From: Lentimicrobium sp. L6
GTDB taxonomy: Bacteria; Bacteroidota; Bacteroidia; Bacteroidales; UBA12170
Direction: 5' to 3'
DNA length: 59,203 nt
Assembly: GCF_013166655.1 (NCBI RefSeq)
Contig: NZ_JABKCA010000023.1
Coordinates: forward strand, 1-59,203
Part shown: one piece after another, positions 1,605 to 37,784 of the stretch
How positions within the stretch are numbered: position 1 is the stretch's first letter
Layout: the number at the start of each line of letters is the position of its first letter
Notes under the pieces: generated by a model
What the model was told of the DNA's origin: nothing
The model's database searches: none
What the model saw: only the letters and a program-made list of their open reading frames with translations
Translations under genes and position numbers: made by a program

Positions 1605-2543
1605 CTAATGATTAAAATCGATACTCTTAGATAAACGTAGAGATACCGCATAATTATTGGTCAATTGAGTACCATTCATGTTTTTATAAAAAGGGTAATC
1701 ATATTTTAATGAGACATTCCATTGCTTCCAGAAATTATATCGTAGTTGAGGAGCTATAAACATCACATGCCCGCCTGTTGCATTCACCAATTCCTTGTTT
1801 TTATCGGAGGCTTTATCTCTATATTGTGACCTCCACTGTAAAGCTAAAGTTAGTTTAGACATAATTTTATATCCCGCATAAAGAGAGTTATTATAAAGAT
1901 TCCCATACTTATAATTGGTTCTCTCCGTTTCAATACGCTGGGAGTATTCGAAGGAATTATCAAAGAACAAGGCCAATTTCCCTTGCATATATAACTTTGA
2001 AAACAAAAGCCCAATCTGATATTTATAAGAACCAGAAGAAGGCTGGATATCGATAGGAAGGACGACCGAACCATCCACCTGATCGAATGTTCCAACGGGC
2101 AAAGTCACTTTTACTCTTGGAAATATATTGAAGAATTTCTCACAATTCTGATAAGCTAAATATTGAGCTCCCAAAACCAGATCTCCTAAGCCAGTTGCAT
2201 TTCTATTCTGATCGAAAACAAAGTATTGAGCCTTGGCAAAAAAGTAGCCTATCTCTGCTGTCACTTTTAATTTATCAGTAATTCCATAAGCCAGATTTGC
2301 AGAGGAATACATAAAATAGGAATAGTCTATATATTCATAATCGGATCTTTCATTCCCTTTGAAGTATATATCGGAATAGCTATAAGTACCTAAAATACCG
2401 GCTTCCAATATTTTCTTCCCTCCTCCACTTGCTGAGCCATCATCGCTTATTGGGTTTCCTGCAGCGCAGCATTGGGCTTCGGCTTCTTGGATGCAGCAAA
2501 AACTTGCCAATACCATAGCCAATATAATGAATCTATTCATCAT
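1605..2543 (-). CDS. Outer-membrane beta-barrel protein with Cys-Cys N-terminus, metal-island associated
   Basis: This is a 312-residue exported protein. A signal peptide (about residues 1-23, ending EAEAQ) is followed at once by CCAAGN and a Gly/Ser linker. About a dozen alternating amphipathic strands with aromatic girdles then run to a C-terminal strand with aromatic and charged residues. The organisation resembles the MetA-pathway phenol-degradation/transporter family of outer-membrane barrels. It is the third gene of a short minus-strand operon: a T9SS HMA protein, a Cys-rich lipoprotein 33 bp upstream, then this gene. The Cys pair placed at the mature N-terminus suggests metal contact. 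A role in passing metal or a metal-chelate across the outer membrane is inference; the barrel call is fairly safe. Confidence 0.65.
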   Translation of the reverse strand: MMNRFIILAMVLASFCCIQEAEAQCCAAGNPISDDGSASGGGKKILEAGILGTYSYSDIYFKGNERSDYEYIDYSYFMYSSANLAYGITDKLKVTAEIGYFFAKAQYFVFDQNRNATGLGDLVLGAQYLAYQNCEKFFNIFPRVKVTLPVGTFDQVDGSVVLPIDIQPSSGSYKYQIGLLFSKLYMQGKLALFFDNSFEYSQRIETERTNYKYGNLYNNSLYAGYKIMSKLTLALQWRSQYRDKASDKNKELVNATGGHVMFIAPQLRYNFWKQWNVSLKYDYPFYKNMNGTQLTNNYAVSLRLSKSIDFNH

Positions 2544-2576: not shown

Positions 2577-2945
2577 TTAGGGAATGTAAATATTAACGGT
2601 TACCGTTTCCGTTACTTCGCCTTTATCATTCTTCACTGTACACTTTATAATCTTATCTCCAATACAGCATTCCGAACCTGTAAATCTTACTTGAGATCCA
2701 TCTTCATTCAATACAAAGATATCACCCAGATCAACTTCCCAAGTATATTCACAATTTCCTCCAGAAGCCTCACAGGTAATGATAGCAGGCTCTTCACCAC
2801 CAAATTTGATGGTCGATTTATCAGATGTTAGACTTAAAATCTCAGGAGTAGTAGTTGTTGTACTAGGTGTTGTTGTTTCTTCTTTCTTGCAACTGATACT
2901 AAAAACAGTGGCTAGCATCAACAGGGCTATTATTGTATATTTCAT
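2577..2945 (-). CDS. Cys-rich lipoprotein with Ig/PKD-like fold
   Basis: This is a 122-residue predicted lipoprotein. It has a hydrophobic signal and a SISC lipobox (Cys19) followed by KKEE, then a Thr/Pro linker at 22-34. One Ig- or PKD-like beta-sandwich (about 35-122) contains the typical ends ITCEASGG and VKNDKGEVTETVTV. Five further Cys (58, 65, 93, 94, 102) sit in the sandwich; the CC pair at 93-94 is unusual for PKD domains and could bind metal or form disulfides. It begins 4 bp after the T9SS HMA gene and precedes the outer-membrane barrel gene, so the three are probably co-transcribed. No specific family is recognised. Confidence 0.6.
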   Translation of the reverse strand: MKYTIIALLMLATVFSISCKKEETTTPSTTTTTPEILSLTSDKSTIKFGGEEPAIITCEASGGNCEYTWEVDLGDIFVLNEDGSQVRFTGSECCIGDKIIKCTVKNDKGEVTETVTVNIYIP

Positions 2946-2949
2946 GGGT

Positions 2950-3627
2950 TTATTGTTTAATTATTTTTGTGCTTGAAACGGCCATCCCATTACTAGAGAT
3001 CATGACCATATATGTTCCATTTACTTTATTTGTTAGGTCTATTTCCTGATTATTACCATCCTCAATGGAGCTTGAATATACCATTTGACCTTGCATGGAG
3101 AAGACTTGAATTTTAGCATTTAGAATACTTGGTGTATCATTCAAGTTAATGCTATACCTACCACTGCTAATACTTGGAAAAACTGAAATATCACTTAGGT
3201 AGTCATACTCATTTACAGCTACATGTCCAACGTAGATACCCATTAAACTCAAATAACCCATTTGAACATCATCATAATTGATAGTTCGTTCATATTCACA
3301 ACAAGTGCCTATCAACAGCTGATATGCTTCATCGGGAGCTCTGAACCATTCGGTATCGTGACCTGTATCTGCAACAGCTTGCATAATGATATAAGTATCG
3401 GTAACAAACTCATCGAAGGTAACCGTAGTTTCTGCATAAAAAGGATCGTATTTGGAAAAACTAACCCCTTCCATGGCATTAAGTTTTGCCTCTACCCTTA
3501 CTTTACAAGTATAACAATTGCCAAGGGTGATGAATCTTACTGTGAAATCATCTTTAGTTTGAGCAAATAAAGATGGGGCAGCCAACAGAATAGCCATCAC
3601 TAGGATAAACGTAGATTTTATTTTCAT
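2950..3627 (-). CDS. Exported heavy-metal-associated (HMA) protein with T9SS sorting domain
   Basis: The 225-residue product has a signal peptide (1-22, ending LFAQ). An HMA ferredoxin-like module (about 27-115) follows, with GNCYTCKVRVE as its metal-binding loop (Cys38, Cys41) and the downstream motif TCCEYER (Cys109-110). A type A T9SS C-terminal domain occupies about 145-225: ISVFPS start, SMQGQMVYS, NGTYMVMI, and final basic KIIKQ. HMA domains bind Cu(I), Ag(I) or Hg-like metals through the two Cys. The sorting domain predicts export through the outer membrane and attachment to the surface. That combination is unusual, because HMA proteins are normally cytoplasmic or periplasmic. It heads a three-gene operon and has its own likely promoter at 3658-3686. 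Confidence 0.75.
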   Translation of the reverse strand: MKIKSTFILVMAILLAAPSLFAQTKDDFTVRFITLGNCYTCKVRVEAKLNAMEGVSFSKYDPFYAETTVTFDEFVTDTYIIMQAVADTGHDTEWFRAPDEAYQLLIGTCCEYERTINYDDVQMGYLSLMGIYVGHVAVNEYDYLSDISVFPSISSGRYSINLNDTPSILNAKIQVFSMQGQMVYSSSIEDGNNQEIDLTNKVNGTYMVMISSNGMAVSSTKIIKQ

Positions 3628-3686: not shown

Positions 3687-3985
3687 CACTAATCCCTACC
3701 CTTACGTGACGAGTATATTTCGATTTAATCCTAGAATTTTACGTTGTATATCGCCTTTTTACTCCCTATTATTTCAAGAAAGTAGCATCAAAGCTAAACC
3801 ACTATGGACTGAATTAGCATAGGTTTGTTTTAGGAATAATATTCGTTCTAATAATGACCAATTATGGATGGAAGCCCGAAGTAGATTTACTTCTAGCTTC
3901 TGACTCCCGACTTCGAACCATGAAGTATATAGAAACCGAAACACTAAAGTGTATAGTTTTAAAAACGAATGAGACCAATAAAATC
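3687..3985. other. Intergenic region between the Crp-type regulator and the T9SS HMA operon
   Basis: About 300 bp with no convincing gene. A 95-codon forward frame from 3854 overlaps the 3' end of the regulator and lacks family features. I see no clear terminator or FNR-type palindrome here. Confidence 0.5.
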
Positions 3986-4678
3986 CTAACTGATCATACT
4001 AATCTTTTGCAACTTATCTATTTCCAATATCCGAATGTCATTTTTAATAATTTCAATGACGCCCTCCTCGTTCAACTCCTTCAAAGTTCTTATTACTGTA
4101 TCCTTCGACATTCCTGTAAGCTCGGCCATATCTTGTCTTGAAATAGAAATGAGATGGTCTCTATCATCAAATATCTTTTCATGTAAATAGATTAAGCTGT
4201 CAGCCAATCGACCATGGGTATTTTTATGAGTTAAACAAGTAAAGCGCTCGTAATTAAAAATTCCATTCCAACTGATCAACTCCATAAACTGCTCTGCAAA
4301 TCTCTCATTCATTTTTATCACCTTTTTAAAAATGTGGATGTCGATAAAACAAACGGAGGACTCCTCAATAGCGCTTACTGAAGAATAGTGAATTTGATCG
4401 GCAAATATGCCTGGAGCACCCAAGAAATTGGTGGGTTTTATAAATTGCAACAATAAGTTTCGATTGCCCGAAGCCTCAATATAAACCTTGGCAATACCAG
4501 AGGTGAAACTGATCACATGGGACATAGGCGCCCCTTGCTTCACTATGATTTCTCCTTTCTTAAACCTTACTTGCCTTTTGTTGACATTGATTAATTCTAA
4601 TTCTTCTTCTGTCAGCACTTGAAAAAGTGGTGATTTCATAGAACAACTACAACAGTGTTTATCTTGTATACAATTCAT
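3986..4678 (-). CDS. Crp/Fnr-family transcriptional regulator with Cys-rich N-terminus
   Basis: This is a 230-residue regulator. A cyclic-nucleotide-binding-like beta-roll (about 18-130; KKGEIIVKQG, then SFTSGIAKVY) is followed by a dimer helix and a winged helix-turn-helix (about 170-215; ISRQDMAELTGMSKDTVIRT). Cys3, Cys9, Cys10 and Cys12 form a cluster at the extreme N-terminus, recalling FNR-type Fe-S sensors though with different spacing. The cluster could sense redox state or a metal. The gene lies 50 bp after the small HMA gene at the end of the CusABC-type cluster and just before the T9SS HMA operon, so control of either or both is a reasonable guess. An AAGGAGA Shine-Dalgarno-like sequence lies just upstream of the ATG. 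Confidence 0.8.
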   Translation of the reverse strand: MNCIQDKHCCSCSMKSPLFQVLTEEELELINVNKRQVRFKKGEIIVKQGAPMSHVISFTSGIAKVYIEASGNRNLLLQFIKPTNFLGAPGIFADQIHYSSVSAIEESSVCFIDIHIFKKVIKMNERFAEQFMELISWNGIFNYERFTCLTHKNTHGRLADSLIYLHEKIFDDRDHLISISRQDMAELTGMSKDTVIRTLKELNEEGVIEIIKNDIRILEIDKLQKISMIS

Positions 4679-4728: not shown

Positions 4729-5070
4729 TTACCTTTCCGGTCTATCATATTTACAACAAGAATGTAAAGCCTCATAGACCTCATCCTTTGCAGTTGCATT
4801 TTCTGTATCGTACCCCACATCGGCAATTGCCTGATGAATAGCTTCAATATTGGTTTTTTCAGCATCAAAGGTAATTTCCATCATTTTAGTTTTTTGATTC
4901 CAATTGGCTTTTTTCACCCCATCAACATTCTTTACTGCTTTTTCTATGGTCTTCTCACACATTCCGCAGTTACCGTAAACTTTAAATTTCTCTTTGGTCA
5001 CATTTCCCGCTATGGCAGAAAAGCCAAACATTAATACCATGGCTAATAATAAACTGAATTGCTTTTTCAT
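4729..5070 (-). CDS. Small secreted heavy-metal-associated (HMA) protein
   Basis: This is a 113-residue exported metal-binding protein. The start at 5070 (MKKQFSLLL) is preferred over an upstream ATG at 5178, because it gives a clean signal peptide (1-22, ending AIAG) and avoids overlap with the adaptor gene. The mature part is one HMA module: VYGNCGMCEKTIE (Cys35, Cys38), an AIADVGYDTE helix turn, and a C-terminal HSCCKYDRPER. The HSCCKYDRP tail is the same motif found twice on the adjoining adaptor. It sits 22 bp after the adaptor gene in the pump operon. It probably shuttles Cu(I) or a similar soft metal in the periplasm to the RND pump, comparable in role to CusF but unrelated in fold. 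Confidence 0.8.
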   Translation of the reverse strand: MKKQFSLLLAMVLMFGFSAIAGNVTKEKFKVYGNCGMCEKTIEKAVKNVDGVKKANWNQKTKMMEITFDAEKTNIEAIHQAIADVGYDTENATAKDEVYEALHSCCKYDRPER

Positions 5071-5092: not shown

Positions 5093-6928
5093 TTATTTAC
5101 TTCTTTCATATTTACAACAAGCATGTAATTGCTCATAAACGGCATCAGGGGCTTTTGCCAATTCGGTATCATGCCCAACTTGAGCCAATTCTTGATGAAT
5201 AAGTCCCATACTTACCTCCTCAGGATTAATACTCAGTTTGAGCATAGTGGTTTCTGAATCCCAATCGGCTTTCACCACACCCTGAAGCTCCAAAACCGCA
5301 GTTTCAATTCTTTCTTTACACATACCACAGTTTCCATAAACCTTAATTTCTTCTAGTTTTAAGTTCTGAGGCCTATCGTATTTACAACATTCATGTAGGG
5401 ACTCATAGACTTCATTTGGGGAGGTTTCCAAATCAGTATCATGCCCAACATGAGCTATAGCCTGATGTACTTCCGCCAAATCTACCGACTCATGATGAAG
5501 GTATAAACTCTTGGTATTTTCATCCCAATTGACATGTTCTACTCCTGCTACTGATAAGGCTGCAGTTTCTATTCTTTCTTTACACATACTGCAATTTCCA
5601 TACACCGTAAAAGCGTCATCAGCATTCTCCAAACTAGGCATTTCACCATGATCATGTCCTGAACTTACTGCTCCACCCCCTGGATTCATCATGCTGGGCA
5701 AACCAGATAATTGTGCTGAGGCATCTATTTTAAACACTCCATTTACGGCGATCTCTTCACCGACTTCTAATCCGGATTTCACAATATAATAATCGCCAAC
5801 CTCAGCACCTAAATCAATTTCTCTATACAGAAATGTGGGAGAATTTCTTTCAGGAACTTTTATATAAACTACAGCTCGCTTTCCAGTCCATAAAATTGAT
5901 GATTGTGGAATTAAAATTTCTAATTCCTCTGATGCCGATTCTGAATGTAGAACACCATCCACAAACATTTCTGGCTTCAGAGACAAATCCGAATTATCTA
6001 GTTCTACTCTCACCTGCACCACTCTGGTCTTTGGATTCAGAAAAGCATCAATAAAAGAGACCTTTCCACTAAACTCCTTTTGGGCCAAAGCCTTAATTTT
6101 AAAATTGATTTCATCACCTATTTTAATCCAAGGCAAATCGCTTTCATATGCATCAAAAAGCACCCAAACTTTGGTGAGATCTATTACTTGCAACATGCCT
6201 TTACCTTCTTTCACATAATCCCCTTCTGTGACATGTCTGCCACTTACTGTTCCTGAAATTGGAGAAAACACATCAAAATAGAGCTGTGGTTCTCCATTTT
6301 CTTCTATGGCTTTGATTTGAGATTTTGATAAGTCCCATAATTTAAGCTTAGCTATGGCTGCATCATACAAAGCTGGACGGGTATCTATAAAAGAAAGCGC
6401 TTCTAATAATTCTTTTTGTGCTGAAACCAAATCAGGAGAATATATAGTGGCCAAAAGCTCCCCCTTTTTCACTTGTTGGCCAGTAAAATTCACAAATAGC
6501 TTTTCTATCCGCCCCCCATAACGAGCCGTGATTTCGGCAATATTGCGTTCATCGGCCTTTACCTTTCCTTGCAAAAACAAGTCTTTCATTGGCAAAGCCT
6601 CCTCCACTATTAAAGTTTGAATATTGGCTAAACTTGCGGCTGCCTTAGTCATGCTGATTTCATTTGAAGAAGCATGATCACCACCTGAACCCATGGTTTG
6701 CATGGGAACTAAATCCATAGCACAAATGGGGCAAAGACCGGGTTTGTTTTGCTTAATTTGAGGATGCATGGAGCAGGTATACATGGTTTCTACTTCTTCC
6801 TCTTGATGTTCATGATTGTGCTCATCATCTGAAGGTTGACTGCTTCCACCCAAGAACATCCAACCTATCAACATTCCTATAATCAATGTGGGAATGATGA
6901 CGTATATATATTGTTTTATATTTTTCAT
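5093..6928 (-). CDS. CusB-type RND periplasmic adaptor with N-terminal metal-binding and two C-terminal HMA modules
   Basis: This 611-residue membrane-fusion protein belongs to a heavy-metal RND pump. Its parts in order are: an N-terminal anchor (about 8-27); a His/Asp/Glu-rich stretch (DEHNHEHQEEE); a heavy-metal-binding motif at 49-76 (YTCSMHP, then GLCPICAMDLVPM); and the adaptor core with lipoyl-like and beta-barrel domains (about 95-410). Two HMA modules follow at about 435-520 and 526-611, each with GNC[SG]MCKERIE and a terminal CCKY[DE]R. Ordinary CusB proteins are about 400 residues; the 175-residue double HMA tail accounts for the extra length. It is encoded 11 bp after the TolC gene. 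The tail may capture metal from the small HMA protein and pass it into the pump. Confidence 0.9.
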   Translation of the reverse strand: MKNIKQYIYVIIPTLIIGMLIGWMFLGGSSQPSDDEHNHEHQEEEVETMYTCSMHPQIKQNKPGLCPICAMDLVPMQTMGSGGDHASSNEISMTKAAASLANIQTLIVEEALPMKDLFLQGKVKADERNIAEITARYGGRIEKLFVNFTGQQVKKGELLATIYSPDLVSAQKELLEALSFIDTRPALYDAAIAKLKLWDLSKSQIKAIEENGEPQLYFDVFSPISGTVSGRHVTEGDYVKEGKGMLQVIDLTKVWVLFDAYESDLPWIKIGDEINFKIKALAQKEFSGKVSFIDAFLNPKTRVVQVRVELDNSDLSLKPEMFVDGVLHSESASEELEILIPQSSILWTGKRAVVYIKVPERNSPTFLYREIDLGAEVGDYYIVKSGLEVGEEIAVNGVFKIDASAQLSGLPSMMNPGGGAVSSGHDHGEMPSLENADDAFTVYGNCSMCKERIETAALSVAGVEHVNWDENTKSLYLHHESVDLAEVHQAIAHVGHDTDLETSPNEVYESLHECCKYDRPQNLKLEEIKVYGNCGMCKERIETAVLELQGVVKADWDSETTMLKLSINPEEVSMGLIHQELAQVGHDTELAKAPDAVYEQLHACCKYERSK

Positions 6929-6939
6929 TTTTCTGTTTT

Positions 6940-8166
6940 TTATTGACCCATTAAATATTGAACAAAAGCAATGGACGCTAGCTTATCTACTCTAGCTTTC
7001 TCCAATTCCAAATCATATTTTAAAAGCCGTCGTTCCATGCGTAGCATTTCTTCAAATCCCTTTGCATTGGTGGAATATTCCACTTCAATAAGCTTTAGTG
7101 ATTGCTTAGCCAATTTCCCTTGACTAGAATAATGTGAGATTCGTCGTTGTGCATCTTTATAGTCTTTAAAAGCATTCTCGAAAATGGTTTCCAATACGAG
7201 TTCTTTCTCAAATTTCTCTTCTGTTTTTGCAGCTTGCAAATACAATACTTCATTAACCATAGCTTTATACTTGTTTCGATATAGAGGAATGGTAATTCCT
7301 ATTTTGGGAAACAAGAGCGCATCTTTGCCAGATAGGTTATTTTCTCCTTTTCCAATAAAAGTATAATCTATGCCTATTGAGATATTGGGTAAACCCGCTT
7401 TTTTAGCCACTTGCTGACGAGATTCCAAAGAATGATATTGATATTCCAGACTCAAAAGCTGATGATTATTAGCATATATACTATCCAACAAGGCTTTTTT
7501 ATCGAGTTTCAAATCCTGCTCCCAAATAAGATCTGGAATGGAAATTATAGACTCATTATCTACATTTAATAGATTATTGAAAGTGATAGAAAGCACTTCA
7601 TATTTATCTTGAACAAGAGCCAACTGATTTTCCAAATCAGCCAATTCCATTTCCACTCTTAGTTCATCGTTAAGGCTGGCTTTTCCGGTTTCAATTTTGG
7701 TGAGGGCTAATTGCTTAAAGACATGCAATATGCTCTGATTTTCAGACATCACAAAAATAGCCTTACGAGTAAAATAGAGATTATAATAGGTAGCTTTTAC
7801 TTCGTTGAATAATATGGACTTGGCCTCCTCAAAAGCTTCATATTTTGCTTTTGCCAGTTGAACAGCCACATCTTCTTTGGCTTGCAGACTACCAAACCAA
7901 GGAAACATTTGATTGGCTGATACTTTAGCAATCTGAGGACCTTCACGGGTTTCAACTGGAAGGATGAAATAGCCAAAGGCAAAGCTTGGATCTGGCAAAC
8001 TACCTACTTGAGGAATGACTTCCAAAGCAGCCATATATTCATTGAACTTGACTTGTAATCCCGGATTATTCTGGGCTGCTGCCTTCAAATAAACCTGTAA
8101 ATCTTCTTGAGCATAGCTCATTTGAAAACCCAATATGCAAATACAAATGACGATTATCTTTTTCAT
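6940..8166 (-). CDS. TolC-family outer-membrane channel of the heavy-metal pump (CusC-like)
   Basis: The product is about 408 residues from the start at 8166. That start gives a signal peptide (MKKIIVICICILGFQMSYAQ) and overlaps the pump gene's stop in an ATGA junction, so it is preferred to an in-frame start 60 bp upstream. The sequence shows the two long-helix repeats of outer-membrane efflux proteins (for example LADLENQLALVQDKYEVL and LLKYDLELEKARVDKLAS) and the short strands forming the barrel. It would complete a tripartite pump with the RND permease and the adaptor on either side, expelling metal across the outer membrane. Confidence 0.9.
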   Translation of the reverse strand: MKKIIVICICILGFQMSYAQEDLQVYLKAAAQNNPGLQVKFNEYMAALEVIPQVGSLPDPSFAFGYFILPVETREGPQIAKVSANQMFPWFGSLQAKEDVAVQLAKAKYEAFEEAKSILFNEVKATYYNLYFTRKAIFVMSENQSILHVFKQLALTKIETGKASLNDELRVEMELADLENQLALVQDKYEVLSITFNNLLNVDNESIISIPDLIWEQDLKLDKKALLDSIYANNHQLLSLEYQYHSLESRQQVAKKAGLPNISIGIDYTFIGKGENNLSGKDALLFPKIGITIPLYRNKYKAMVNEVLYLQAAKTEEKFEKELVLETIFENAFKDYKDAQRRISHYSSQGKLAKQSLKLIEVEYSTNAKGFEEMLRMERRLLKYDLELEKARVDKLASIAFVQYLMGQ

Positions 8167-11100
8167 ATCGCTCCTCCTTCTGTTAATTCGTTGATGGATT
8201 CTTCCTTCAGTTTTCTTTCTTGCCACATGCTGTATAAAACAGGTACCACAAACATGGTGAGCACTTCTATAGTCATTCCTCCAAATAGTGGGATGGCCAT
8301 TGGTACCATAATATCGGAGCCTTTTCCAGTAGAGGTCAGCACGGGGAGCAAAGCAATAACTGTAGTTGCAGTTGTCATCATAGCAGGCCTCACTCTTTTC
8401 ATTCCGGCCTCTATCACCAATGCTCTTACTTCTGCTTTGTTCTTTGGCTTATTCTTCTCGAAAAGTTGTTTTAAATGGGTGCTAATTAATACACCATCAT
8501 CGGTAGCCACTCCAAACAGGGCAATGAAACCAACCCAAACCGCCACACTTAAATTGATGGTTCTCACTTGAAACAAATCACGCATATTGGTGCCAAAAAT
8601 GGAGAAATCTAAAAACCAAGGCTGGCCATAAAGCCAAATCATGATAAAGCCTCCAGCCAGAGCCACTATTATTCCTGAGAAAATTAATGAGGAGGTAATC
8701 ACCGAACGAAACTGAAAATACAGGATCAGAAAAATCACCACTAAACATATTGGTATAATCAACAAGAGACGTTTGGTCGCTCTAATTTGGTTCTCATAGT
8801 TTCCAGTGAAAATAAAATTCACACCTTCAGGCATCACCAGTTCACCAGTCTCCATCTTATCCTCCAAATACTTCTGAGCATTTTCTACCACATCCACTTC
8901 AGCAAAGCCTTCTTGCTTATCAAAAATAACATAGCCCACTAAAAAGGTATTTTCACTTTTGACCATTTGTGGTCCTCGAGAATACTCAATATCTACGAGT
9001 TCTCCCAAAGGAATTTGTTGTCCCATGGGTGTAGGAATTAAAATTTTCTTTAAGCCTTCAGGATGATCTCTATATTCTCTAGCATATCTTAATCGGATGG
9101 GATAGCGTTCGCGGCCTTCTACACTGGTAGAAAGTTGCATTCCTCCAATTGCACTACCAATAATTCCTTGCAAGTCTTGAATGGTAAGCCCATAACGAGC
9201 TAATTCTTTTCTTTTAATATTGAGCTCTAGGTAAGGCTTCCCAACAACTCTATCAGCAAAAACCGACATAGCAGAAACGCCTTCCACCTCTTTTAAAAGC
9301 TTCTCCAATTCATAGCCCACCTTTTCAATGGATTCCAAATCAGGGCCATAAACTTTCATGCCCATGGGGGCCCGCATTCCGGTTTGCAACATGACCAAGC
9401 GAGTTTGAATGGGTTGTAATTTAGGCGCGGAGGTGAGTCCTGGAATACTAGAATGATGAACTATCTCTTTCCAAATATCATCAGGAGAATTTATATTCTC
9501 TCTCCATTGACGAAAATATTCTCCATCTTCCTCAACAATTAGATTTTCCCTTTCAATGACCTTAAACTCTTCCTCCCTTGGATGATAGGTACTGCCATCT
9601 TTAAGTACAAAAGCGCCTTCTCCATCTACTTTAAATCGAAGTCGCTTTCCATGTTCATTTAAGATATACTCAGATTTATAATTGATTACATTCTCATACA
9701 TGGAAACAGGTGCAGGATCCAATGCTGAATTCACTCTTCCCCATTTACCGATGACATTCTCAACTTCTGGAATGGCATTTACTTTTTTATCTAAGATTCT
9801 AATGACTTCCAAATTCTCTTCAATCCCAGAATGCGGCATGGTGGTTGGCATTAACAAAAAGCTTCCTTCGTCTAGATTTGGCATAAACTCTTTCCCTATA
9901 CCAGGTAATGATTCATCTAGCGACTTCCAAGTTTTTGATTCCTTAATGCTTTCAGGAACAAAACCACCAATCTTATCTATTCCTTGCCAAGTCATTAAAC
10001 CAAATAGGATTAGAATGATAGGAAAGCTTAAAAAGAACCACTTATGATTTAAACACCAAGAAAGTATTTGACGATAGAAATGCACCATCGCCATCATAAA
10101 TGCCAAAACAAAAACGATAATAGAGATTACAAAAATGAAATTGGAGAACAAAGATTGTTGAGCTCCAAGAGGCATCCATGCTTTGGTTAAGAAATAAACC
10201 ACCACCATTAAGATGATAGAAATATTGATATAATTTGGAAACTTTCGGTATTTTTCAGACCATTTGAATTCCATGATATTATTAATTCCGATCGCTATCA
10301 TCCCTAAAGTGATGAAATTACCAGAAATAAATAAGAGGACAAATCCGCCCAAGATGAGTAATCCATTCCAAATCCAACGGACTTTCTTCTTGTCGAATTT
10401 GATAGAAAAGATAAAGTGAGCCAACGCTGGTATGATAATCAAACCAATAATTAAAGCCGAAAGCATGGCAAAGGTCTTTGTGAAAGCCAAAGGTCTAAAA
10501 AGTTTACCTTCGGCAGCTTCCATAGCAAATACGGGAAGGAAACTTACGACGGTTGTTGTTAATGCCGTTATAACTGCTCCTGCTACTTCGGTGGTCGCTT
10601 CATAAACCACACCTAATAATTGCTTTCCTTTGGCGCCCACATTTTTGGCCATTTCTATATGCCTAATGATGTTCTCTGTAAAGACGACTCCCACATCCAC
10701 CATCACTCCTATGGCAATAGCAATACCTGATAAAGCCACAATATTAGCATCCACACCAAATCGCCTCATCACGATAAAAGTCATTAAAACGCCTATTGGT
10801 AGAAGAGTTGTAATTAAAATGCTGGCTCGCAAATTCAACATCAATACAATGATGACGATGATGCTGATGAGGATCTCCAATGATAAAGCCTCCTCTAAGG
10901 TTCCTAGTGTTTCTTTGATTAAACCCGTACGATCGTAGAAGGGAATCAAAGTTACTTTCGAGACACTCCCATCTGCCAGGGTTTTAGAAGGAAGGCCTGG
11001 ACTTATCTCTGCTATTTTTGCTTTAACATTCTCTATAACTTCTAATGGATTAGAGCCATATCGTGCCACCACAACACCTCCCACAGCTTCTGCTCCTCCT

Positions 11101-11984
11101 TTATCCAATCCACCTCTTCTGGTGGCAGGGCCAAAGTTGACTTTTGCCACATCTTTTATTCGAATGGGAACATTTTCATTAACTGCAACCACACTTTCTT
11201 CAAGTTCTGATAGTGTTTTCACATAACCCAATGCACGGATTAAATATTCTACTCTATTGAACTCTATTGTTCTAGCACCAATATCCAGATTACTCTTTTT
11301 AACTGCATTCATTATCTGAGCAATATTTACACCATGAGCTTTCATGGCTATGGGATCAATATCTATTTGATACTCTTTCACGAAGCCGCCAATTGAAGCT
11401 ACTTCCGAAACTCCCTTTGCAGCCGTTAATGCATATTTCACATAGAAATCCTGGATACTCCTGAGCTCTTGAGGATCCCAATCACCAGAAGGTTCGCCAT
11501 CTTTATTTCTTCCTTCTAATGTATACCAATAGACTTGCCCTAAAGCAGTGGCATCTGGGCCTAAAGAAGGTATGACATCAGGGGGCAAAGTACCGGGAGG
11601 AAGTGAATTGAGTTTCTCGAGTATACGAGTACGGGTCCAGTAGAAATCTAATCCATCCTCAAAAATAATATAGATACTAGAAACTCCAAAGATGGAATTA
11701 CTACGTATGGTCTTCACTCCTGGAATACCCAAAAGAGAAGTGGTTAGAGGATAAGATATTTGATCGTCTATATCTTGTGGCGATCGACCTGGCCATTGCG
11801 TATATACTATTTGTTGATTCTCTCCTATATCGGGAATGGCATCAACAGGGACAGGGTCTCGTGGTAAGATTCCGGTCTCCCATCCAAAAGGAGAACTGAT
11901 TACACCCCAAAGAATGAATGTAAAAAGTAAAAGGAAAGTCACCAATCTGTTTTCAAGAAAAAACTTGATGGTTTTATTTAGCAT
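8163..11984 (-). CDS. CusA/CzcA-family heavy-metal RND efflux permease
   Basis: This is the 1273-residue inner-membrane pump. Typical landmarks are the N-terminal transmembrane helix, the VDAIPDIGENQQIVYTQWPG porter segment, the TM4 proton-relay region (AIAIGVMVDVGVVFTENI, with the charged Asp and Glu expected of metal RND pumps), NLDEGSFLLMPTTMPHSG, and the second-half helices (IALFGVATDDGVLISTHL). Met-rich QTGMRAPMGMKVYG in the porter domain fits a Cu(I)/Ag(I) pump. It is more than 200 residues longer than E. coli CusA (about 1047 residues). The excess includes extra hydrophobic segments around 530-660, just before GIGKEFMPNLDEG. It is the second gene of a likely operon: HYC_CC_PP protein, pump, TolC, adaptor, HMA protein. 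Confidence 0.93.
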   Translation of the reverse strand: MLNKTIKFFLENRLVTFLLLFTFILWGVISSPFGWETGILPRDPVPVDAIPDIGENQQIVYTQWPGRSPQDIDDQISYPLTTSLLGIPGVKTIRSNSIFGVSSIYIIFEDGLDFYWTRTRILEKLNSLPPGTLPPDVIPSLGPDATALGQVYWYTLEGRNKDGEPSGDWDPQELRSIQDFYVKYALTAAKGVSEVASIGGFVKEYQIDIDPIAMKAHGVNIAQIMNAVKKSNLDIGARTIEFNRVEYLIRALGYVKTLSELEESVVAVNENVPIRIKDVAKVNFGPATRRGGLDKGGAEAVGGVVVARYGSNPLEVIENVKAKIAEISPGLPSKTLADGSVSKVTLIPFYDRTGLIKETLGTLEEALSLEILISIIVIIVLMLNLRASILITTLLPIGVLMTFIVMRRFGVDANIVALSGIAIAIGVMVDVGVVFTENIIRHIEMAKNVGAKGKQLLGVVYEATTEVAGAVITALTTTVVSFLPVFAMEAAEGKLFRPLAFTKTFAMLSALIIGLIIIPALAHFIFSIKFDKKKVRWIWNGLLILGGFVLLFISGNFITLGMIAIGINNIMEFKWSEKYRKFPNYINISIILMVVVYFLTKAWMPLGAQQSLFSNFIFVISIIVFVLAFMMAMVHFYRQILSWCLNHKWFFLSFPIILILFGLMTWQGIDKIGGFVPESIKESKTWKSLDESLPGIGKEFMPNLDEGSFLLMPTTMPHSGIEENLEVIRILDKKVNAIPEVENVIGKWGRVNSALDPAPVSMYENVINYKSEYILNEHGKRLRFKVDGEGAFVLKDGSTYHPREEEFKVIERENLIVEEDGEYFRQWRENINSPDDIWKEIVHHSSIPGLTSAPKLQPIQTRLVMLQTGMRAPMGMKVYGPDLESIEKVGYELEKLLKEVEGVSAMSVFADRVVGKPYLELNIKRKELARYGLTIQDLQGIIGSAIGGMQLSTSVEGRERYPIRLRYAREYRDHPEGLKKILIPTPMGQQIPLGELVDIEYSRGPQMVKSENTFLVGYVIFDKQEGFAEVDVVENAQKYLEDKMETGELVMPEGVNFIFTGNYENQIRATKRLLLIIPICLVVIFLILYFQFRSVITSSLIFSGIIVALAGGFIMIWLYGQPWFLDFSIFGTNMRDLFQVRTINLSVAVWVGFIALFGVATDDGVLISTHLKQLFEKNKPKNKAEVRALVIEAGMKRVRPAMMTTATTVIALLPVLTSTGKGSDIMVPMAIPLFGGMTIEVLTMFVVPVLYSMWQERKLKEESINELTEGGAI

Positions 11985-35309: not shown

Positions 35310-37784
35310 TTATGACTTCTGAAAAACTCGCTTCAACAAACTAGGTTTCTCTACATCCTTATCATCAGAATAATAACCATAGCCATATCCGTAGCCGTAA
35401 CCATAGCCATAACCGTATCCGTAGCCGTAACCATAGCCATAACCATAGCCATAAGCATTTCTAGAGAGACGAACATCATTAATCATGATATTTACATTTG
35501 GAATGTTCCTTTGCTCTATATCCTTAATGATACTAGCAAATACCTTTTTATGGGTAAAGTTTTGTCGGACGATAAACAATGTAATATCTGTATGCTTCAT
35601 TAAAAGGAAAGCATCAGTTACTAAACCAACTGGAGGAGTATCAATGATGATATAATCATATATTTCTTTACATCTTTCAAAAAGCTCATCTGTTTTACTT
35701 GAAGCAATAAGCTCGGCAGGATTTGGTGGTACGGGACCAGACATAATAATATCAAGATTATCGATAGAAGATTTCTGAACGATATCTTCAAAACTACTTT
35801 TATTGATTAAGTAGGAAGAAATTCCCTCTGTATTGGACAAACCAAAATCCTGATAAATCTTTGGCTTCCTCAAGTCAAATCCCATCAATAAGGTCTTCTT
35901 TCCATACATGGCATAAATGGAGGCCATATTGATAGAAGAATAGGTTTTACCTGCCCCAACCATATCCGAAGTAATCAATATAGTCTGTTGTTCCTTCCCT
36001 TTTGCCATATATTGAAGATTGGTTCTAATCGATCTAAAGGACTCCGCAATGGAAGACTTAGGTGAAGTAGCTACAACAATCTTTGATTCTTTACTGCTAT
36101 GAATGGTATGACCTATAATGGGGAGTTTAGTCAAACTCTCTACATCTTTTCTTTCAATCACTTTGTCATTCATAAAGTCTTTACCAAGAATATATCCCAC
36201 CGGAAGAACAACACCTAAAACTAGTGCTATTAAATAGTTAAGTGATTTCTTTGGATAAACAGGGCTCCCTCCAGCACTCTTACGGGCCAGATCTACAATC
36301 TCGTTGTCAGGTTGGTTAGAAGCAGCTGTAATTTGAGCTTCTGAGCGCTTCTTTAATAAAAACACATACATGGTATTACTCAATTGAAATTGACGTTCCA
36401 TGTTAAAAAGAGTTCTCTGAGTTAATGGCAGTTTGTTTACTTCGGTTGCCAATAATTCAATTCTCTCATCGATATCATTAAGTGATATCTGCGACGACTC
36501 TACCAAGTTATCAATATTCTCTAGCAATGCTCTTTTCTGACTATTGATTTTAATATCTACTTGAATGACAGCTGGATTAATATCAGTGGCACTATACAAT
36601 AATTCTGCTCTTTCCTGATATAAATCAATTAAAATTTGCACAAAACTACTAGTAACAGCATCGTTAATTCCTAATGCAGATGGCACAATAATATCATCAA
36701 TTTTATCCTGATTCTCTATAATGTAGTTTTTAAGACTTTGATAATATTTATCGCTTAATAAAAGCTCAGCTTTTTTCTCTGTAAGAGTGGCCATTTGTTC
36801 AAAAACCTGAGTGGTTTGAAAATCCATATTCATCACATCATTCTCGGTTCTGAATATTTGCAGATTATACTCTGCTGAATCGAGGTTAGAACTGATAGAT
36901 ACCAATTGCTCATCAATAAACTCAATAGTTCGCTCAGCAATCTTATTTTTCTTGTTTAACTCCATATCTAAATACACTCTGGTGAGCATATTCAAGAAAT
37001 CTACCGACTTATCTTTATTACTTCCTTTGAGCTTAACTTCAATAATAGAGGATTCTTTATTGATAGGTTCAATCTCAAATCCTTTATACCTCCCAACTAA
37101 TCCATCAGTGCTATTGAAAACAAAATACATCTTTTGATTCAAATTCTTTTCAGGATCGAATTTAGGGGTCAATATTAATCTAAATCTATAATATTCTGAT
37201 TCTATCCATTCTCCAAAACGATGGTTCTCATTAATACTGATGAGCTTTAGATTTTGATCTTCAATTTTTTTATCTGTTGAATAATCATATAAATCCAAAT
37301 TCTCACCATCACATGCTAATGTAAATTCAGTTAGTGAATTGATATTTATATTAAAATTTAAAGTTAAGGTTTGAATATGATTATTATCAAATTCTACTTT
37401 GAAAGGAGCCTCTGTATACAACTCCTTAGAAATAAAATTATCCTCTCCAAATATAGAAACTTCAAAGTCTAACATCTTAATAGTCTGGTGTGAAAGCTTA
37501 TAAGACTTTAACTTACCTATCTCATTTTCCAGATTTTGCATATTGTTTCTAAAACCTAAACCTAGCAGCGATTGTGCATCACCAGCACTTTTGTCTTCTA
37601 TCAAAAGTGTAGTAGAAACTTCATAAATAGGCTTAGTATACTTATTAAATAGAAATGCGATAACTAATGCTATAAAGATGGTCACTACAAAGAAATACCA
37701 ATGACGATAAAACTTAAAAAACAAAGCTTTATAATCTACTGCTTCTTCTTGATAAATATCTTGCGGGTTATAATTTTCGTTCAC
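35310..37784 (-). CDS. Wzc-like polysaccharide co-polymerase and tyrosine autokinase
   Basis: The 824-residue protein has a Wzz-type N-terminal domain with a transmembrane helix (about 30-50). A long coiled-coil periplasmic region follows, then a second helix (about 505-525; LIALVLGVVLPVGYIL). The cytoplasmic BY-kinase domain has Walker A SDMVGAGKT, Walker A' LLMGFDLRKP and Walker B YIIIDTPPVG. Such kinases control capsule or exopolysaccharide chain export by phosphorylating their own C-terminal tyrosines. Here the tail is an extreme (Tyr-Gly)13-Tyr-Tyr tract (DNA 35370-35453). It is encoded 10 bp after the Wza-like gene. Other capsule genes (glycosyltransferases, flippase, polymerase) are absent from the window. 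Confidence 0.92.
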   Translation of the reverse strand: MNENYNPQDIYQEEAVDYKALFFKFYRHWYFFVVTIFIALVIAFLFNKYTKPIYEVSTTLLIEDKSAGDAQSLLGLGFRNNMQNLENEIGKLKSYKLSHQTIKMLDFEVSIFGEDNFISKELYTEAPFKVEFDNNHIQTLTLNFNININSLTEFTLACDGENLDLYDYSTDKKIEDQNLKLISINENHRFGEWIESEYYRFRLILTPKFDPEKNLNQKMYFVFNSTDGLVGRYKGFEIEPINKESSIIEVKLKGSNKDKSVDFLNMLTRVYLDMELNKKNKIAERTIEFIDEQLVSISSNLDSAEYNLQIFRTENDVMNMDFQTTQVFEQMATLTEKKAELLLSDKYYQSLKNYIIENQDKIDDIIVPSALGINDAVTSSFVQILIDLYQERAELLYSATDINPAVIQVDIKINSQKRALLENIDNLVESSQISLNDIDERIELLATEVNKLPLTQRTLFNMERQFQLSNTMYVFLLKKRSEAQITAASNQPDNEIVDLARKSAGGSPVYPKKSLNYLIALVLGVVLPVGYILGKDFMNDKVIERKDVESLTKLPIIGHTIHSSKESKIVVATSPKSSIAESFRSIRTNLQYMAKGKEQQTILITSDMVGAGKTYSSINMASIYAMYGKKTLLMGFDLRKPKIYQDFGLSNTEGISSYLINKSSFEDIVQKSSIDNLDIIMSGPVPPNPAELIASSKTDELFERCKEIYDYIIIDTPPVGLVTDAFLLMKHTDITLFIVRQNFTHKKVFASIIKDIEQRNIPNVNIMINDVRLSRNAYGYGYGYGYGYGYGYGYGYGYGYGYGYYSDDKDVEKPSLLKRVFQKS
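35370..35453 (-). repeat. (Tyr-Gly)13 coding tract in the Wzc tail
   Basis: Thirteen TAY-GGN hexamers, then TAT TAT, encode the kinase's tyrosine cluster. Codons alternate irregularly between TAT/TAC and GGT/GGC/GGA, with larger 30-bp-scale internal repetition. The tract could gain or lose units by slippage while remaining in frame. Confidence 0.9.

Follow-up and report, generated by a model that had tools for sequence, protein, structure and literature searches.

Most descriptions of arsenic and mercury systems concern the inner membrane and the cytoplasm, and to our knowledge the exit of such metals from the Gram-negative periplasm is rarely addressed. Carrier domains of the CopZ/MerP/HMA kind share with the locus presented here a CxxC loop and, by profiles, a fold family. 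The protein of the present locus differs from them in its T9SS tail, in a CC-E-Y-x-R motif after the domain, and in its divergence from the Pfam HMA profile. Cus-type RND export (CusCBA) adjoins the module, and the HMA-CC module recurs there in the CusB-like protein and in a separate one; however, the barrel of the module is not an OEP/TolC duct, and the module occurs elsewhere with no pump in view. Arsenic (ACR3/ArsP) and mercury (MerTP/MerA) clusters contain relatives of the lipoprotein and barrel. The barrel is most like the COG4313 channel Pput2725 (PDB 4rl8) and FapF (PDB 5o65), with which it shares a predicted 12-stranded fold, itself scoring over the PF13557 cut-off. In 4rl8 the N-terminus is on the periplasmic side, from which the first ~14 residues enter the lumen, and the COG4313 family is viewed as one of uptake channels (PMC4493636). 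FapF passes a polypeptide (PMC5557850). The module differs from these two in its Cys-Cys mature N-terminus, its lipoprotein partner, its company in metal operons, the C-terminal HMA domain present in five loci, and an identity of ~13-14% over the aligned part.

The locus lies in a window, by which we mean the whole stretch of DNA analyzed, of 59,203 bases on contig 23 of the incomplete 5.14-Mb genome of Lentimicrobium sp. L6. Three genes that a sequence-only reading had placed here, encoding an HMA-T9SS protein, a lipoprotein and an outer-membrane barrel, were found at the same coordinates, all on the minus strand. The lipoprotein gene starts 4 bp downstream of the HMA-T9SS gene, and ~1.6 kb of contig remains beyond the barrel gene. 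We consider it nearly an even chance that these genes, usually with a Crp/Fnr regulator, form an outer-membrane thiol module that releases soft metal(loid)s and binds them at the surface. The features of the locus are as follows.

1605-2543, minus strand: outer-membrane barrel, 312 aa (PF13557, 35.5 bits, cut-off 22)
2466-2474, minus strand: codons of the presumed mature N-terminus of the barrel, Q24-C25-C26; QCC invariant in the 18-row barrel alignment
2577-2945, minus strand: lipoprotein, 122 aa, Ig/PKD-like fold, lipid on C19 (from sequence and predicted fold)
2664-2669 and 2640-2642, minus strand: codons of the lipoprotein three-Cys motif C93-C94...C102 (profile-aligned Cys positions)
2950-3627, minus strand: HMA-T9SS protein of 225 aa, made up of a signal peptide, an HMA module and a T9SS type A sorting domain
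2953-3186, minus strand: T9SS sorting domain, about residues 148-225 (curated profiles)
3298-3303, minus strand: codons of C109-C110 (CCEYER, after the HMA fold), invariant in 7/7 HMA-T9SS proteins
3505-3516, minus strand: codons of the CxxC motif C38-C41 (GNCYTCK), invariant in 7/7 aligned HMA-T9SS proteins
3729-3753, minus strand: candidate operator, a weak inverted-repeat counterpart with 3 mismatches to TCGT-N7-ACGA, possibly by chance
3986-4678, minus strand: Crp/Fnr-type regulator (cNMP_binding and HTH_Crp_2), upstream of the module here and in L147-L151
4729-11984, minus strand: Cus-type set (Pfam/NCBIfam), judged to lie outside the unit
4729-5070, minus strand: HMA protein of the Cus-type set
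5093-6928, minus strand: CusB-like adaptor of the set; carries an HMBD domain and, at the C-terminus, two HMA domains
6940-8166, minus strand: OEP of the set
8163-11984, minus strand: CusA/CzcA of the set

Between the barrel gene and the contig end, two frames at 79-1417 read like transposase pieces.

The sequence-only reading had given the 225-aa protein a signal peptide, an HMA module and a type A T9SS sorting domain, and had named recognition of the C-terminus by profile search as a check. Two curated profiles recognized it: residues 151-223 matched Por_Secre_tail (PF18962) at 36.7 bits (cut-off 27), and the same tail matched TIGR04183 at 35.7 bits (cut-off 23). The architecture was confirmed, with a divergent HMA part. 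Five of the six orthologs passed the PF18962 cut-off, and the one in L149 scored 23.8 bits. The Pfam HMA profile gave 13.5 bits for the window protein, under its cut-off of 24.8; NCBIfam CopZ (E 5.1e-6) and MerP (E 2.2e-5) matched inside residues 8-93, each falling short of its own cut-off. Residues 4-115 were 34% identical to the neighboring HMA protein (4738-5067; E 3.8e-12). Among the orthologs, L149 (26.6 bits) and L151 (25.5 bits) exceeded the Pfam HMA cut-off, L150 (24.4 bits) and L159 (22.3 bits) fell just under it, and L147 and L148 gave no HMA match at E 0.05 in the Pfam profile search. Because of the CopZ/MerP profiles, the similarity to neighboring HMA proteins and the two orthologs over the Pfam cut-off, we regard the HMA part, on sequence grounds, as real but divergent and CopZ/MerP-like. 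The CxxC and C-C-E-Y-x-R motifs were both invariant across the seven HMA-T9SS proteins, and the same CC motif closes the fused HMA domains of L153, L159, L164 and L215.

SprA, the T9SS component searched, was found over cut-off in the same genome by its SprA_N domain, together with at least 150 Por_Secre_tail matches over cut-off (of 262 candidates, 150 were scored). Together these point to a T9SS, which the genome very probably has, and the tail predicts surface placement of the HMA-T9SS protein. We also considered the ~290-aa HMA proteins of the phylum sample as T9SS-tagged proteins and rejected them: no sorting tail was found in their frames, and the five that were read (L227, L230, L234, L235 and L254) end differently. 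In three same-class genomes (L239, L245 and L246), long proteins that we take by eye to be TonB receptors have a KACCNLSESF stretch and, at the N-terminus, two HMA-CC modules. They resemble the present unit in having HMA-CC modules on a presumed outer-membrane protein, but theirs is a much larger barrel type.

Relatives were sought in an order sample of 295 genomes, a phylum sample of 395 and a family sample of 11, 6 of them ≥90% complete. The HMA-T9SS protein was matched in 64 of the 295 order genomes (E 1e-9), with HMA and tail together in its own genome only. In the phylum sample, where about seven candidates per genome were scored, 106 of 395 genomes gave a match (E 1e-12), and among the matches listed the tail was covered in its own genome only. 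One of the 11 family genomes, again its own, has the protein. A one-pattern scan of named species genomes with the barrel alignment gave 79 loci from the best 80 of 82 matches; the closest barrels among these matches, 56-63% identical to that of the window, belong to five Bacteroidota genomes (L147-L151). In these five and in the window the order of Crp/Fnr regulator, HMA-T9SS gene, lipoprotein and barrel is kept. A further locus, L159, has the HMA-T9SS protein, the lipoprotein and a barrel with a fused HMA, without the Crp/Fnr regulator. Across 282 loci with 97 HMA-bearing frames, HMA and T9SS tail occurred in one frame only in the window, L147-L151 and L159; HMA was fused to the barrel in five of the 282 (L153, L159, L164, L215 and L256). 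The three genes were linked in all seven HMA-T9SS loci, the window included, as the sequence-only reading had expected of related genomes; this is not a blind test, since the barrel was the bait for six of the seven and the linkage is therefore partly ascertained. Four Flavobacteriales relatives inside the HMA branch (L152 and L154-L156) showed no HMA nearby. In L215 the lipoprotein and the barrel-HMA fusion are immediately preceded, at 8378-9091, by a T9SS-tagged protein whose metal-binding domain is FtrD-like (PF10080, 74.6 bits); a TonB receptor comes before that protein.

It could be argued that an HMA paralog acquired a sorting tail and came by chance to lie next to a pair with which it has no relation. 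The identity to the neighboring HMA protein, the presence in a single family genome and the frames just downstream that read as transposase-like would suit such an accretion. However, the same gene order in five genomes with such similar barrels, the HMA-barrel fusions and the 4-bp gap speak against it. Because the gene order is conserved, we regard chance accretion as largely excluded and very improbable.

The unit was also considered as part of the adjoining Cus pump. No CusA match was found beside the module in L147-L151 among up to seven genes per side (fewer in L149, an 8.1-kb contig), and the Crp/Fnr regulator stays in all five. Membership in the pump was rejected since no pump was seen beside the module in these relatives, and the unit does look separate from the RND pump, as had been proposed. 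The barrel gave no match to the OEP domain PF02321 at E 1, whereas the neighbor at 6940-8166 does match; by its domain profile the barrel does not belong with CusC/TolC-type efflux ducts.

A TCGT-N7-ACGA repeat is visible upstream of the HMA-T9SS gene in all five relatives, in two sequence groups. It is the only exact match in the scanned loci L148, L149 and L150, and a single exact match arises by chance in 16/200 to 18/100 shuffles per locus. A looser pattern has two matches in the window, of which one, with 3 mismatches, is correctly positioned; 22 of 100 shuffles have as many. No Crp/Fnr-type TTGA..TCAA box upstream of the HMA-T9SS gene was common to the loci.

The barrel had been read as carrying Cys-Cys (CCAAGN) at its mature N-terminus, and the PF13557 match and the start QCCAAGNP agree with this, the mature start being presumed. 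The barrel was matched in 64 of the 295 order genomes at E 1e-6, and tblastn against plasmids gave no match. Against solved structures its sequence gave one weak match, 4rl8 (E 0.57). Structural comparison, in which Foldseek was also used, was done on a homolog, the barrel-HMA fusion of L215, to which the window barrel is 45% identical. The AlphaFold2 model of this fusion (pLDDT 86.6) has 12 main strands, counted by eye, and an HMA-like domain after the last strand. It matched the COG4313 channel 4rl8 with Z 28.5, rmsd 2.0 and 258 aligned residues, and FapF with Z 26.4, rmsd 2.3 and 252 aligned residues; autotransporter domains came next, at Z ≤21.6. These results predict a COG4313/FapF-type 12-stranded channel. 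With 12 strands, both barrel ends would lie on one membrane side. The N-terminal Cys-Cys stretch is of low confidence in the L215 model; because the N-terminus of 4rl8 enters from the periplasmic side, we consider it more likely, by analogy, that the Cys-Cys lies at the periplasmic mouth of the channel than at the surface. Exposure of the Cys-Cys on the surface was rejected on the same ground, namely the N-terminus on the periplasmic side in this fold relative (PMC4493636).

For the lipoprotein, five cysteines besides the lipobox Cys19 had been claimed, and C58, C65, C93, C94 and C102 were found. It is predicted as an Ig/PKD-like sandwich (pLDDT 86.7). Matches of this fold to Ig-like domains were weak (best E 1.9e-4, TM 0.48), and the best match of its sequence among solved structures was the Hoc capsid protein (E 7.2e-4), the others being at E 0.37 or weaker. 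A surface-export signal, C-X-K-(D/E)2-X, was worked out in C. canimorsus (PMC5080379), and the C-K-K-E-E start of the window lipoprotein fits it. Among 49 lipoproteins of relatives the signal was strict in 6 and loose in 33, in a count that took the wrong Cys in a few rows (e.g. L104, L135, L173 and L194). The lipoprotein may possibly sit at the cell surface. It was matched in 49 of the 295 order genomes at E 1e-3.

We then merged the loci of the order sample with those of the named species into 112 non-redundant barrel loci, one locus per distinct barrel end with cut contigs included. The lipoprotein lay directly upstream of the barrel on the same strand in 88 of these, with a median gap of 3 bp and with 85 of the 88 within 100 bp. 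The presumed mature N-terminus of the barrel is QCCxxGNP in the branch of the window and mostly QCF in another. Genes of the ArsC/ACR3/ArsP type lay within 8 kb of 34/56 QCC..GN barrels versus 0/21 QC[FLG] barrels (17 QCF, 2 QCL and 2 QCG), a difference with an exact-test value of 2.8e-7 that ignores shared ancestry. They were also near 3/27 QCC barrels without GN and 5/8 barrels with an unreadable motif, several of the eight being from cut frames. Neighbors were named by profiles from first-sample clusters and Pfam-checked on representatives, so that the profiles and the Pfam check are not independent; Pfam found HTH_5 (ArsR type), LMWPc, SBF, ArsP_1, DsbD_2, DGC, rhodanese and FtsX. Proteins that we take to be of the FISUMP type, recognized by reading, lay near 18/21 QC[FLG] barrels. 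In L117, L118, L123, L127, L130, L132, L133, L135, L137 and others, the QCF barrel is paired with a two-Cys lipoprotein; FISUMP-type proteins are their neighbors, and short T9SS partners are often present as well.

The window locus itself has no ArsC/ACR3/ArsP gene within 8 kb (first 14 kb), the contig ending ~1.6 kb beyond the barrel, and in this it differs from the arsenic clusters. A second lipoprotein-barrel pair in the same genome (L136, contig 34, 2948-5834) lies in an ArsR/ArsC/ACR3-type operon; after it come an AhpC/TSA-thioredoxin-like protein and another one, both T9SS-tagged. Three mercury operons contain the pair (L204, L209 and L217), with MerA over cut-off in all three and MerTP over cut-off in L204 and L209, the two loci run. 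Tenacibaculum and Dokdonia are among the sources of these mercury loci. The pair is not specific to HMA or copper; it is widespread and occurs in arsenic-type and mercury operons. Its basic role need not be metal, since few QCC barrels without GN and none of the QC[FLG] class lie near ArsC/ACR3/ArsP genes.

A rival explanation is a thiol-disulfide relay, in which the Cys sites would not hold metal but transfer electrons, or reduce disulfides, across the outer membrane or outside it; metals would matter because they attack thiols. Consistent with this, thioredoxin-like (Trx in 27, TrxC3 in 30), DsbD-type (DsbD2 in 28) and rhodanese genes (Rhod in 21) occur among 83 QCC loci, the T9SS-tagged AhpC/TSA-thioredoxin protein after the pair in L136 has similar counterparts in L098, L101, L160, L161 and L162, and CxxC or CC motifs are present in all parts. 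However, HMA is a metal-carrier fold and has been fused to the barrel five times, and MerA and MerTP accompany the pair in the mercury loci. We consider a thiol relay quite unlikely.

The third lipoprotein Cys, scored by profile alignment in the 89/112 loci with a usable lipoprotein, was present in 45/46 metal-linked loci versus 10/43 others (exact test 2.9e-14, shared ancestry ignored). By context it was found in 32/32 arsenic, 10/11 HMA and 3/3 mercury loci, versus 1/18 FISUMP loci and 9/25 of the rest. The ten non-metal rows that have it include L056, a 3.25-kb contig, and L099, L152, L154, L155 and L156, which the tree places in the HMA set. In a tree of 111 barrels, 39/41 arsenic-tagged and 10/11 HMA-tagged rows fell in one half. 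The window and L147-L151 grouped together (support 100/99) within a larger set of 15 rows, 10 HMA-tagged and 5 untagged (support 100/97). The three mercury loci fell in the other half, with the FISUMP branch, and the link between the third Cys and metal is therefore not confined to one clade.

Short T9SS-tagged partners lay beside the pair in 25/112 loci of HMA, arsenic, FISUMP and other contexts, including 10/20 FISUMP-tagged loci. This range of contexts would suit a role in surface docking or assembly, in which lipoprotein and barrel hold T9SS-delivered partners or help them fold, whatever the job of the partners, and the fold relative FapF does pass a polypeptide (PMC5557850). Yet 87/112 loci showed no short T9SS-tagged partner among the genes examined, and the third Cys follows metal context. 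We give the docking role only a small chance.

The metal-releasing module that we favor builds on the computed domain content, gene linkage, HMA-barrel fusions, metal-operon association and Cys pattern; from these we infer docking and the binding of metal, as well as the identity of that metal, its direction and the surface location. The barrel would be a narrow COG4313-type channel with its Cys-Cys N-terminus at the periplasmic mouth. The Ig-like lipoprotein would carry a three-Cys site and work with the barrel, and the T9SS-delivered HMA protein would stand outside the cell and hold metal that leaves. The net effect would be metal release and surface binding, complementing inner-membrane pumps. 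Given the HMA type, the most likely cargo at the window locus would be Cu(I) or Ag(I), with low certainty.

The same parts could run the other way, with the surface HMA capturing scarce Cu(I), which would then reach periplasmic HMA proteins by way of the lipoprotein and the barrel. Such copper uptake would fit L159, where metal carriers would flank the membrane, an HMA-T9SS protein outside (by its tail) and an HMA placed after the last strand of the barrel, and the view of COG4313 channels as uptake channels (PMC4493636). Against it, a Cus-type pump adjoins the module in the window, and the company of the pair elsewhere consists of export and resistance genes. We therefore regard uptake as quite improbable. 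The sequence-only reading had suggested a surface metal-capture or metal-sensing unit; this is supported in part, but the operon company favors detoxification over uptake, capture or sensing.

The module is real and conserved, and sets a known barrel fold in a setting that we have not found described. No such module was described in the literature titles and abstract openings searched, which covered few subscription papers and are weak evidence of novelty. A wider reading, possible though doubtful, is that modules of a Cys-Cys channel and a three-Cys Ig-like lipoprotein form a family that supplies the outer-membrane step still missing from soft metal(loid) detoxification in Bacteroidota and their relatives. 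Its members would be adapted to arsenic, to mercury and to copper/silver, with one branch handing the metal to a surface HMA-T9SS protein. As part of this doubtful reading, the outer membrane of L159 would be flanked by metal carriers, the HMA on the barrel inside and the HMA-T9SS protein outside. If true, the Cys-marked channel and lipoprotein of arsenic-, copper- and mercury-type loci would be a candidate for the step by which these metals leave the periplasm, and the placement of a metal-carrier domain on the surface by the T9SS would be an unusual use of that system.

Elsewhere in the window, a gene at 35310-37784 encodes an 824-aa protein of the polysaccharide-export type, in which a long GYGYGY run lies close to the C-terminus.
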